DNA of 64,000 bases from Rhodocyclaceae bacterium (GTDB lineage Bacteria; Pseudomonadota; Gammaproteobacteria; Burkholderiales; Rhodocyclaceae): NCBI GenBank assembly GCA_026415155.1, contig JAOAHQ010000025.1, forward strand, positions 58,029 to 122,028, read 5' to 3'. A program made the position numbers and the translations under genes. A model generated the notes under the pieces. That model did not search any database. It was not told the DNA's origin and was given only the letters and a program-made list of their open reading frames with translations. Below, one piece after another: positions 5,901-63,716 of the stretch. Position 1 is the stretch's first letter, and each line of letters starts with the position of its first letter.

Positions 5901-6801
5901 CTTGCCGGCCAACGTGCCGCGCCGCACGGCGCGCGCGCTGCTTGATCTCGAGGATGCGACGGTGATTCCCGTGATCCGCGATCCGCGCCGTGCCCCGGAG
6001 GAGTCCGAGGCCGTCTTCTATTTCCCCGGCTGCGGTTCGGAGCGGCTCTTCTCACAGGTGGGGCTCGCCACCCAGGCGATGCTCTGGCATGTCGGCGCCA
6101 CGACGGTGCTGCCACCCGGTTATCTGTGCTGCGGCTATCCGCAGACCTCGGCCGGCGACGCAACTCGCGGCCAGGCGATTACGACGCAAAACCGCGTGCT
6201 CTTCCACCGCGTCGCCAATACGCTCAACTACCTCGACATCAAGACGGTGATCGTCTCCTGCGGCACCTGCCTCGACCAGCTCGAGCACTATGAATTCGAG
6301 CGCATCTTCCCGGGCTGCCGCCTGCTCGACATCCACGAATATTTGATGGAAAAAGGCGTCAAGCTCGCTGGCCTGCAGGGCGCGCAGTATCTTTATCACG
6401 ATCCCTGCCACACGCCGATGAAGCAGCACGCGCCGCTCAAGGTAGCGAAGGCCTTGCTGGGCAAAGAGATCATGCTCTCCGAGCGCTGCTGCGGCGAATC
6501 CGGCACGCTCGCGGTGACGCGCCCCGATGTGGCGACCCAGGTGCGCTTCAGAAAGCAGCAGGAAATCGAGGCCAACCTCGCCAAACTCGGCGCTGGCCAG
6601 ACGGCGACTCATCCAGCTCCCGTGCGCCTGTTGACGAGCTGCCCGTCCTGCCTGCAAGGCTTGTCGCGTTACCGCGAGGATGTGGCGGTCGAGGCCGATT
6701 ACCTCGTCGTCGAGCTCGCGCGCCACCTCTTGGGCCCCGACTGGCTTGCGCGTTACCTCGCCGCCGCCCACGCAGGCGGCATCGAGCGCGTGCTGTTGTA
6801 A
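2920..6801 (+). CDS. DUF3683 / FAD-linked oxidase / 2x[4Fe-4S] / CCG-domain giant oxidoreductase
   Basis: A 1293-aa fused flavoprotein. The order is a DUF3683 N-terminus ([19 protein letters not shown]), an FAD-binding PCMH domain from about residue 165 ([17 protein letters not shown]), a FAD-oxidase C domain with [14 protein letters not shown], a two-cluster ferredoxin region at about 823-895 (CLRCGKC and CTVCHKC), and two CCG heterodisulfide-reductase-like repeats (CCGYPQ near 1068, CCGESG near 1189). This amounts to GlcD/Dld, GlcF and GlpC-like parts in one chain, so a 2-hydroxyacid (D-lactate or glycolate type) dehydrogenase feeding quinones is likely; the substrate is not visible. A proline-rich HWHP segment near residue 620 looks like a lineage-specific insert. 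A 23-bp dispersed element lies near the C-terminus. Confidence 0.9.
6583..6605 (-). repeat. 23-bp dispersed element, copy 1
   Basis: This minus-oriented copy lies inside the giant oxidoreductase gene. It is read in reverse as LGAGQTA, in a linker just before the conserved [11 protein letters not shown]. It ends in GAGTTT rather than GACTTT. Confidence 0.75.
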
Positions 6802-6814
6802 GCGAGAATTTGCC

Positions 6815-7234
6815 ATGCGCCAGGCACATCAGATCTTGACCCTCGCCACCCGCGGCCGCGGCCTCGTCGAATTTACCCGTGAAGCGCGCGATTTCGTCGC
6901 CGCCACGGGGATGCGCGATGGCCTCTTGACCGTCTTCTGCCGCCATACCTCGGCCTCGCTGCTCATCCAGGAAAACGCCGACCCGGACGTGCGCCACGAC
7001 CTCGAGACCTTCTTCGCCCGCCTCGTGCCCGATGGCGATCCCGCTTGGCGGCATGCCAGCGAAGGGCCGGACGACATGTCGGCGCATCTGCGCACAGCGC
7101 TCACGCACAGCTCGCTCGGCATCCCGCTCATCGCGGGGCAGCTGGCGCTCGGCACCTGGCAGGGGCTCTATCTCTGGGAGCATCGCACGCGGCCGCATCG
7201 CCGCGAGGTGGTGCTGCACCTCATCGGCGATTGA
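6815..7234 (+). CDS. YjbQ family (UPF0047) protein
   Basis: This 139-aa protein matches the single-domain YjbQ/UPF0047 family from end to end. Landmarks are FCRHTSASLLIQENADP, the ALTHSSLGIPL stretch and the closing GTWQGLYLWEHRTRPHRREV. Members have weak thiamine-phosphate synthase activity in vitro, but their physiological role is unsettled. The ATG at 6815 is chosen because the ORF-track start at 6680 lies within the upstream gene and the family begins here. It follows the oxidoreductase by 13 bp and is probably co-transcribed. Confidence 0.92.
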   Translation: MRQAHQILTLATRGRGLVEFTREARDFVAATGMRDGLLTVFCRHTSASLLIQENADPDVRHDLETFFARLVPDGDPAWRHASEGPDDMSAHLRTALTHSSLGIPLIAGQLALGTWQGLYLWEHRTRPHRREVVLHLIGD

Positions 7235-7270
7235 TCCAAGCCAAGGCCGGCCGTCGTGTCAGCGCCGAGA

Positions 7271-61381: not shown

Positions 61382-61663
61382 GGGTCGAAGCTCCGGGGTG
61401 AAGCGCATGAAGCTACTGGAATCGGCGCAGGAAAGCAACTGCAAGCGCCAGCTCCGCGCCAGCTCGCTCTTTCCTGATCCTCGCTCGTGTCCCCACCACC
61501 GCATGCAGGCAGAGAGCCGGACGGTGGGCGAGGCAGGCAGCGCCCGTCCCCAGTCTATGCGCCGCCGCCAGGGAAGGACAAGGGTCATCGTGCCTTCGAG
61601 CGACAGCCCTGCGCATGGATAATCCGCGTTTTCGACTTTCGCCAGCACCTCAGAGTCAAGACG
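61382..61663. other. Divergent spacer between thiC and the MidA-like gene
   Basis: This 282-bp spacer holds the promoters of both genes. I see no THI box (no CTGAGA with a matching ACCC) and no convincing ORF. The track ORFs here have no family likeness. Nothing further is recognised. Confidence 0.5.
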
Positions 61664-62818
61664 TTGCAGCCCTCTCTCCCACGCCCCCCCCACGACGCCC
61701 AAGCGACAAGCCGCGCCTTGTCGGAAGCCATTGCCGCACGCATCGAGGCCGCCGGCGGCTGGATTTCCTTCGCCGAGTTCATGGAGATGGCGCTCTTTCT
61801 GCCTGGCCTTGGCTATTACGCGGGCGGGTCTCAGAAGTTCGGCGAGGCGGGCGATTTCGTTACGGCGCCAGAGCTCACGCCGCTCTTCGGTCAAGCCTTG
61901 GCGCGCCAGTTAGCGCAAGTGCTTGCCGTCCTGCCAGCGCCGACTGTGCTCGAGGCGGGGGCCGGCAGCGGCCGGCTCGCGGCCGATCTCTTGAGCGAGC
62001 TCGAACGGCTCGGCGCCTTACCAGAGCGTTATGCGATCCTCGAGCTTTCCGGCGAGCTCGCCGCCCGCCAACGCGAGACGATCGTGGCGGCCGTGCCCCA
62101 TCTCCTCGACCGCGTCGTCTGGCTCGATCGTCTGCCTGAGGGTTTCACGGGCTGCATCGTGGCCAACGAACTGCTCGATGCCTTGCCGACCCATGCGGTG
62201 GCCTGGCGTGAGGAAGGGTTCATGGAACGCGGCGTGGGGCTGGCGGGTGAGGAATTCGTCTGGGCCGAACGGCCGGCAAGTGGCGCCTTGGCGGCGGCGA
62301 TGGCGGCGCTGCCTATCGAGGCGCCTTATGAGAGCGAGATTTCGCTCGCCGCGCGCGCCTGGGTGGCCGAGTGGGGCCGGCGGCTCGAAAAGGGCGCGCT
62401 CCTCCTCATCGACTATGGCTTACCGCGCCACGAGCTCTATCACCCGCAACGCTGCCGCGGTACGCTACGCTGCCACTACCGCCAGCGCGTCCATGAAGAC
62501 CCGTTTTGGTGGCCGGGGCTGTCGGACATCACGAGCCACGTCGATTTCACCGCGGTGGCCGAGGCCGGTTTCGCGGCGGGGCTCGATGTGCTGGGCTTTA
62601 CGAATCAGGCAAGCTTTCTTGTGAATTGCGGCATTGGCGAGCTGCTCCTTGCACGCCAGGCAGCAGGAGGCGAACAGGCTTGGCGTGCGAGCGCCGTCGT
62701 GCAGCGGCTTCTCTCGCCCAACGAGATGGGCGAGCTCTTCAAGGTCATTGCGCTGGGCCGGGGAATCGAGGGGCCGCTCGTCGGTTTTGTGCGCGGCGAC
62801 CGGCGCCACGCCTTATGA
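61664..62818 (+). CDS. MidA/NDUFAF7-type SAM-dependent methyltransferase
   Basis: About 384 aa. [17 protein letters not shown] and [16 protein letters not shown] are the signatures of the MidA family, whose mitochondrial member methylates an arginine of complex [13 protein letters not shown] and [13 protein letters not shown] also fit. No ATG is near the expected N-terminus; a TTG at 61664 gives the right length. The start is uncertain. Element copy 15 encodes AVLPAPTV before the SAM loop. Confidence 0.87.
61925..61947 (+). repeat. 23-bp dispersed element, copy 15
   Basis: It lies inside the MidA-like gene in the same sense and encodes AVLPAPTV. The right end reads GACTGT. Confidence 0.75.
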
Positions 62819-62822
62819 GCCT

Positions 62823-63716
62823 TCATGCCGTACGGCGGAACATCTGCAAGAAGCGGCTCTTCTCGCCGAGGAAGAGATGCGCTAGCTCATCAAGGGTGGC
62901 GTGGTTGAGCTCCTCGGCCTGAAGGCGGAATTCCATCATGCCAAAGCGGTCGATGTTGCGCGTGCGCAGCACGAAATCGCCGCGCTCGTAGTCGGCCTTG
63001 ATGAGAAAACCAGCCTTGATCTCGCAGGGGAAGATGAAGCGCGCCGCTTCGGGCTGATGGCGCGCATTGAGCTTTTCCTCGACCTTGAAGACGATGTTGT
63101 AATCGTGCAAGGTCTTTCTGAAGGGCTCAATGCCGAGCGCGTCGCGCTCGATGACGATATTCTTGGGGGCGGCGAGGCGGAAACGCGCCGACATGCTCTC
63201 GTAGCGGCGATCTTCGGTGGCCGAAGGCACCATGCGAAAGTCCGCCGCGCCTTCCACCCAGCTCAGGCCCGAGAAGACGATGTTGCCGGGAAAGATGAAT
63301 TCCTTGGGGATCGCCGGCTTGAGGATGTTGAGCTGCTTGATGAGGTCGTCGATGTAATGAAAGGCTGCGCCCAGCGTGGCCGAAAGAATCTGCGCCTTGA
63401 GTTCCATTTGCGCGCCGCGCTGGCTCTCGTCCTGCTGGAGGGCCTGCGCCTGAGCCTTGAGCCGCGCAAGCAGGCTATTGGCCTCAACCTGACCGAGGCT
63501 CGAGGGCGCCTCCAGTGTGGGTGTAGCGCCCACGCTCGGCGCTGGCGGGACGGCCTCTCGCCTTTCGGCCGCCGGCTGGGAAAGATCGGGAAAGGCGAGC
63601 GTCTCGCGGTGTAGCTCCGGTTTCGCCGGCTCGGCGCCCACGACGGGGCCGTGCCGCGAAAACTCCTCGATATCGGCCAGAAGCTGCGCCGTCTTGTCTT
63701 TTGCTCCTCCGCTCAC
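62823..63716 (-). CDS. Conserved hypothetical protein, 297 aa
   Basis: I do not recognise a family. Residues about 1-85 are low-complexity and charged; 85-125 form a helix (LLARLKAQAQALQQ); 125-290 alternate beta strands and helices (EFIFPGNIVFSGLSWV, RFIFPCEIKAGFLIKADYERGDF). No signal peptide, membrane helix or catalytic motif is seen. Start is GTG 63716 after GAAAGAGG. A dispersed element (copy 16) encodes AVPPAPSV in the disordered part. It is convergent with the MidA-like gene. Confidence 0.7.
   Translation of the reverse strand: MSGGAKDKTAQLLADIEEFSRHGPVVGAEPAKPELHRETLAFPDLSQPAAERREAVPPAPSVGATPTLEAPSSLGQVEANSLLARLKAQAQALQQDESQRGAQMELKAQILSATLGAAFHYIDDLIKQLNILKPAIPKEFIFPGNIVFSGLSWVEGAADFRMVPSATEDRRYESMSARFRLAAPKNIVIERDALGIEPFRKTLHDYNIVFKVEEKLNARHQPEAARFIFPCEIKAGFLIKADYERGDFVLRTRNIDRFGMMEFRLQAEELNHATLDELAHLFLGEKSRFLQMFRRTA
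63532..63554 (-). repeat. 23-bp dispersed element, copy 16
   Basis: It lies inside the 297-aa gene in the same sense and encodes AVPPAPSV. The right end reads GAGCGT. Confidence 0.7.

Follow-up and report, generated by a model that had tools for sequence, protein, structure and literature searches.

What is the 23-bp word that recurs on both strands of a 64-kb stretch of Rhodocyclaceae DNA (contig JAOAHQ010000025.1, positions 58,029 to 122,028; this whole stretch is hereafter the window)? A preliminary description had listed 16 copies, nine on the plus strand and seven on the minus strand, and had likened the word to DNA uptake sequences. Every coordinate and strand proved right, and so did the observations that AGCGCCGA is intact in 15 of the 16 copies (the exception is at 15421) and that two pairs are identical although their genes are unrelated (18690 and 54223, in genes for an AAA-domain protein and a heptosyltransferase; 31628 and 53336, in genes for an HlyD-type protein and a glycosyltransferase). 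Using the full 23-bp pattern at up to three mismatches, we found 18 matches in the window compared with 0.03 in dinucleotide shuffles; the two additional copies are at 39118 (minus strand, one mismatch) and 953 (minus strand, three mismatches, weak). The right half by itself was unconvincing (18 vs 10 at up to two mismatches). From the analysis as a whole, we consider it highly probable that the word is a DNA uptake signal sequence of a clade of Sterolibacteriaceae, which would be the third family to possess one; this function is assigned by analogy and by exclusion from distribution data.

The word was abundant throughout its own genome (G000; 2.38 Mb, 70 contigs, 83.5% complete), in which GCCGTCYYGCCAGCGCCGACTTT occurred 555 times at up to three mismatches and a reversed-pattern control gave 0. 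These copies were divided between 277 on the plus strand and 278 on the minus strand, and 79 of the 156 copies in the relative G017 were on the plus strand. No strand bias by block was detected in a check of replication orientation. Because the strands were equal overall and by block, a replication-oriented signal is not supported, and neither are orientation-dependent chromosome signals. One copy occurred per 4.3 kb (about 0.23 per kb); the density of about one per 4 kb and the lack of strand preference first noticed in the window hold genome-wide. A sample of 439 kb from the same genome, consisting of the window and 375 kb of further stretches, was then used for detailed analysis. Its 109 copies gave the consensus GCCGTC-YY-GCC-AGCGCCGA-C-TTT, with near-invariant blocks at positions 1 to 6 and 13 to 19 (the second block being GCGCCGA), sharp edges and flanks nearly without information. 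An unbiased count of 11-mers ranked parts of the word as the most over-represented in G000 and in the relatives G017, G081, G086 and G055, and in G026 a dialect word supplied the top 11-mer. When synonymous codons were shuffled within genes (439 kb plus two loci), 0.7 copies were expected at up to one mismatch, compared with 51 observed; at three mismatches, the shuffle left a higher count (16.6) because the peptides encoded by the word itself persist under shuffling. This excess over the codon-shuffled expectation and the occurrence of copies beyond this region and this species, in the counts of the whole genome and of relatives, support the uptake-like hypothesis of the preliminary description, which had named a count near that expectation and confinement to one region as refuting outcomes.

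The host is a betaproteobacterium assigned to Rhodocyclaceae by GTDB and to Sterolibacteriaceae by NCBI, near Sulfuritalea and Sulfurisoma; the neighbors of its ComEC among named genomes were uncultured Rhodocyclaceae, Sulfurisoma, Sulfuritalea and Rugosibacter. The word-bearing group consists of freshwater and sediment bacteria. Within the GTDB genus of the host, every sampled genome contained about 400 to 790 copies except G006, which had 2. Among 399 Rhodocyclaceae genomes, the word was abundant only in a few genera (g1, g2, g9, g38, g46 and g64); genera g45 and g23 showed dialects or weak counts, and the remaining genera had 0 to 15 copies at up to two mismatches, most of them 0 to 13. Sampled genomes of the order outside the family had 0 to 6 copies, some of which were perfect and closely placed, which suggests imported DNA or contamination. 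Refinement of a position weight matrix showed that position 6 is free in G086, G055 and G081, that position 15 is A in G026 (65%), and that position 12 is A or G in G063; the dialect of G062 was AGCGTCGACTTT. The same kind of de novo dialect search did not converge on a related word in G006 and gave only a weak word in G040.

Motif-bearing genomes were clustered both in a ComEC tree (6 changes vs 22.9 in shuffles) and in a DnaX+LolD+LolC tree (4 changes vs 17.7 in shuffles). The latter tree fits a single gain followed by losses, which the method does not prove. The clearest candidates for loss are L097 (the same genome as G006) and L093, both on long branches, so that the placement of G006 is unsure. 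The long protein branches of both were seen in the DnaX+LolD+LolC tree, and that of L097 also in the ComEC tree; they could reflect faster evolution tied to lost exchange or a long-branch artifact. Seven contigs whose public metagenome-assembled genome titles read "Bordetella parapertussis" and "Chloroflexi" (L125, L130, L141, L153, L154, L138 and L157) are probably mislabeled, since the ComEC tree groups them with environmental Betaproteobacteria.

Copies were conserved in position between species and placed nonrandomly along the chromosome. At a protein identity of about 75%, 16 of the 20 alignable copies of G000 were found at the same place in G017; sharing was scored at up to four mismatches, and a small number of these copies show clear degeneration in G017. 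Third-codon-position identity between the two genomes was 88% inside the word and 59% in the flanks (17 sites). The coefficient of variation of the spacing was 0.58 in G000 and 0.65 in G017, compared with 0.97 for random placement, which indicates over-even spacing, and G000 had no gaps shorter than 500 bp between copies where 12.4 were expected. Low-GC 4-kb windows had approximately half the copy density (p 0.0005 and 0.007); "acquired DNA" is called here from G+C and gene content only. In the 439 kb, 79 copies lay inside predicted genes, 7 across an edge and 23 fully outside, and the main in-gene readings were KVGAGGTA (32), AVPPAPTF (26), RLASADF (13) and KSALAGR (6). The earlier statement that copies are mostly inside genes holds for the number of copies (14 of the window's 18) and fails by rate, as non-coding DNA makes up 6.6% of the bases and 23 of the 109 copies are therefore an enrichment outside genes. 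Our simple gene caller overlooked part of the O-antigen genes; the real non-coding fraction is therefore smaller, and the enrichment given here errs, if at all, on the low side.

We regard it as likely that these bacteria possess a third, independently evolved uptake language, that is, a 23-bp two-block word that is used by free-living freshwater and sediment Sterolibacteriaceae and not by mucosal bacteria, differs in dialect between genera and has been erased from at least one or two lineages; this would imply an undescribed sequence-specific pilus receptor. The analysis itself covers the distribution, spacing, conservation and dialects of the word, its grouping within a single clade, and the genes for the pilus, ComEC and DprA; binding, preferential uptake, drive and the receptor are the parts of the model that we infer. 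In this model, a surface-exposed minor pilin of the type IV pilus would bind the word on double-stranded DNA, the retracting pilus would pull the fragment in, ComEC would pass one strand to the cytoplasm, and DprA and RecA would integrate it into the chromosome by recombination. Preferential uptake of word-bearing fragments would favor, in exchange, mutations that give rise to a copy or improve an existing one. Such molecular drive, perhaps together with selection for conspecific DNA, would let copies build up at permissive places on both strands at a density of approximately one for each fragment length of roughly 4 kb and would leave them rare in newly acquired DNA. ComEC, PilO and DprA are present in the host genome and nearly all relatives. 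A minor pilin cluster (ispH-pilE-fimT-pilV-pilW) is also present, in which the ispH-linked pilin matches ComP_DUS (PF16732). This pilin is consistently basic among the pilins read (isoelectric point 8.5–9.1), and likewise in motif-free G006; it is therefore a lead and not a finding, and only a candidate for the receptor of the word. ComP_DUS pilins were encoded regardless of whether a genome bore the motif, an inventory of prepilins in five genomes (loci partly read) revealed no convincing pilin restricted to motif-bearing genomes, and retention of the GRxR motif reported for gammaproteobacterial FimT (PMC8897410) did not follow the presence of the word.

Several results count against an uptake function. 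The uptake machinery occurs to the same extent in relatives that lack the motif. The presence of its genes therefore does not pinpoint the receptor, and in profiles of ComEC, PilO, ComP_DUS, DprA and HHH_3 no family tracked the motif. In G086, whose motif-bearing genome is a single contig, no ComEA-type HHH_3 was found, and the HHH_3 matches elsewhere were mostly in long reading frames, so that their identity as ComEA is only putative. In addition, the word is several-fold sparser than known uptake sequences (about 0.8–1 per kb), exact copies occur in 80 viral-labeled contigs, and the accessible literature contains no uptake or transformation assay for these organisms.

The strongest competitor, which we nevertheless consider improbable, is that the word serves as a self-mark inside the cell or as a chromosome-organizing site, to which a nucleoid, repair or defense protein binds, and is unrelated to uptake. 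Even spacing at about 4 kb, conserved positions between species and two conserved blocks approximately one helical turn apart within 23 bp would suit such a site, and Karlin proposed a similar role for the Haemophilus word, as cited in PMC1939737. However, the word is not palindromic and, unlike Chi/KOPS-type oriented signals, has no strand preference; it has genus dialects and is completely absent from close relatives, and its depletion in low-GC and O-antigen DNA is expected for uptake and unneeded for organization.

It is very unlikely that the word is a short mobile or inserted repeat, as the preliminary description had also considered, even though its copy number is high, identical copies lie in unrelated genes, and its 23-bp edges are sharp with unconserved flanks. 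A clean eight-residue insertion was never seen in aligned orthologues (20 sites against G017 and 8 against G006, a moderate sample). One of the four sites not shared with G017 was gapped; in G006, the eight alignable sites carried unrelated residues, and five were gapped with differing lengths, compared with a background of 4%. The ComEC gene of the host lineage itself bears two copies of the word, and motif-free relatives align there mostly without gaps (for example, AVLPAPTF vs AALPALSW). The word sites are variable, permissive places and not insertions, and an origin like that of a miniature inverted-repeat transposable element (MITE) was rejected because no clean presence/absence pattern was seen. 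A true inserted element of the same genome is different, being a unit of roughly 200 bp bounded by inverted ends. Similarly slight is the chance that the word acts as a transcription terminator or a 3' regulatory element: convergent gaps are favored (11 copies in 2.8 kb, whereas the rest of the non-coding DNA has 18 in 24.5 kb), but most copies are intragenic on either strand, the word itself forms no terminator-like hairpin with a T run, and no close inverted pairs (<150 bp) occur in the 439 kb. Least likely of all is a by-product of codon usage or of a common peptide, since, although AVPPAPTF or KVGAGGTA is the peptide in most coding copies, synonymous-codon shuffling refutes it and the word has four main reading frames, lies on either strand and is also present outside genes.

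Table 1. Copies of the 23-bp word and related features in the window, and copies of a separate repeat in the host genome (contigs C54 and C10)
Feature	Position	Strand	Context
Weak, doubtful copy, 3 mismatches	953..975	-	Aminotransferase-like gene 198-1286; absent from aligned G017 segment
Copy, 1 mismatch, encodes KLGAGQTA	6583..6605	-	FAD-linked oxidase/DUF3683 gene 2920-6801; position shared in G017
Copy, 3 mismatches	12408..12430	-	Stop codon of radical SAM/TRAM gene, convergent gap
Copy, 3 mismatches	15421..15443	-	Final codons of PAS-GGDEF-EAL gene; reads AGCGCGGA where others read AGCGCCGA
Perfect copy, encodes RRLASADF	18690..18712	-	AAA-domain protein gene; shared in G017
Perfect copy	24171..24193	+	Intergenic, downstream of phaC-like gene (24295-26115, minus strand)
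Copy, 1 mismatch	27364..27386	+	Convergent intergenic gap after HMGL-like gene
Perfect copy, encodes AVFPAPTF	31628..31650	+	HlyD-type membrane fusion gene; shared in G017
Perfect copy, encodes KVGAGGTA	38500..38522	+	Kdo transferase gene; shared in G017
Copy, 1 mismatch, encodes AVPPAPTL	39118..39140	-	Kdo transferase gene holding 38500 copy; scored shared in G017, degenerate there
Copy, 3 mismatches	41175..41197	-	Heptosyltransferase gene
Motif-free 8.3 kb, G+C 57%	41198..49540		O-antigen/lipopolysaccharide glycosyltransferase cluster
Copy, 1 mismatch, encodes KVGAGGTA	49541..49563	+	Polysaccharide deacetylase gene; scored shared in G017, degenerate there
Perfect copy, encodes KVGAGKTA	53336..53358	+	Glycosyltransferase gene; shared in G017
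Perfect copy, encodes AVSRAPTF	54223..54245	-	Heptosyltransferase gene; shared in G017
Copy, 1 mismatch	55300..55322	+	Between predicted genes
Copy, 2 mismatches, encodes TRLASADF	57159..57181	+	UDP-glucose/GDP-mannose dehydrogenase gene
Copy, 1 mismatch, encodes AVLPAPTV	61925..61947	+	SAM methyltransferase gene; shared in G017
Copy, 3 mismatches, encodes AVPPAPSV	63532..63554	-	Gene without Pfam match at E 1e-8
~200-bp repeat	C54, e.g. about 14453-14656, 71493-71696, 75291-75493, 85438-85641, 88328-88531, 161565-161770		Host genome
~200-bp repeat	C10 57403-57606		Host genome
~200-bp repeat, one end	about 63825	-	Window

Other repeats were also observed. The separate ~200-bp repeat, whose inverted ends read CCAGATTGTCC...GGACAATCTGG, has at least seven full copies in the 439 kb and looks like a MITE. 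The window also contains a 33-bp tandem repeat in coding DNA (four copies, 10463–10610) and a pair of similar 64-bp stretches at a distance of 186 bp (12835–13084), possibly calcium-binding-like repeat units. In contig L260 (IMGVR_UViG_3300009945_000063), a 316-bp tandem array at 629–2123 carries one uptake-like word per unit, and its unit ends resemble what we take to be integron attC ends (TAACG...GTGTTAGGC). In viral-labeled contigs L279, L306, L316 and partly L290, copies of the word are separated by fixed distances (893 and 351 bp) and, in L279, lie within small reading frames; the tag may be present in phages or proviruses of these bacteria.

Known uptake sequences come from just two families, each of them mainly mucosal (PMC7811141), which leaves open whether host DNA in mucus or receptor bias alone drove their evolution. 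If the uptake reading is true, this question would become directly testable through a third, environmental origin that comes with dialects and motif-free sister lineages; there would be a new receptor to be found, and the word could be of use in the genetics of genera like Sulfuritalea. The literature searched (subscription papers and preprints were outside its reach) contained no uptake-sequence paper on Rhodocyclaceae or Sterolibacteriaceae and none tying Sulfuritalea to competence and uptake.

Chi/KOPS/matS-type signals are oriented to replication, palindromic or restricted to one domain. The word resembles them as a short dispersed sequence with many copies and differs in having no orientation bias. 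In the neisserial DNA uptake sequences (DUS) and pasteurellacean uptake signal sequences (USS), the only two classes described in the literature searched, dialects occur (PMC3630211), and copies are conserved, sit at permissive core positions and are absent from acquired genes (PMC2397512); even spacing and no orientation bias are cited in PMC1939737. Like the neisserial DUS (ATGCCGTCTGAA and dialects), the word has many copies on both strands, genus dialects, permissive core sites, lower density in acquired DNA and betaproteobacterial hosts with type IV pili, and it shares its first six bases, GCCGTC, with AT-DUS, perhaps by chance. Every DUS dialect retains the core CTG (PMC3630211), and a DUS dialect was rejected because the word lacks this core. 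Whereas the DUS has 10 to 12 bp, the word has 23 bp, a variable YY at positions 7 and 8 and the second block GCGCCGA; its density is about a quarter of that of the meningococcal DUS, no close inverted pairs were seen in the 439 kb, and it is lacking in the other sampled families of the order. Like the pasteurellacean USS (AAGTGCGGT and the Apl variant), the word is a long multi-part motif with even spacing, dialects and an origin by point mutation, as reported for DUS and USS copies (PMC7811141). It is unrelated to the USS in sequence and lacks AT tracts, the hosts of the USS are gammaproteobacterial, and the USS occurs about once per kb compared with once per 4.3 kb. The USS was rejected because the logo shows neither the AAGTGCGGT or ACAAGCGGT core nor the AT tracts of the extended words quoted in PMC12616744. 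The word is different from both DUS and USS in sequence, length and habitat; it shares with the DNA uptake class over-representation, strand balance, a non-insertion origin, dialects, rarity in presumed acquired DNA, and hosts with a pilus and ComEC/DprA.

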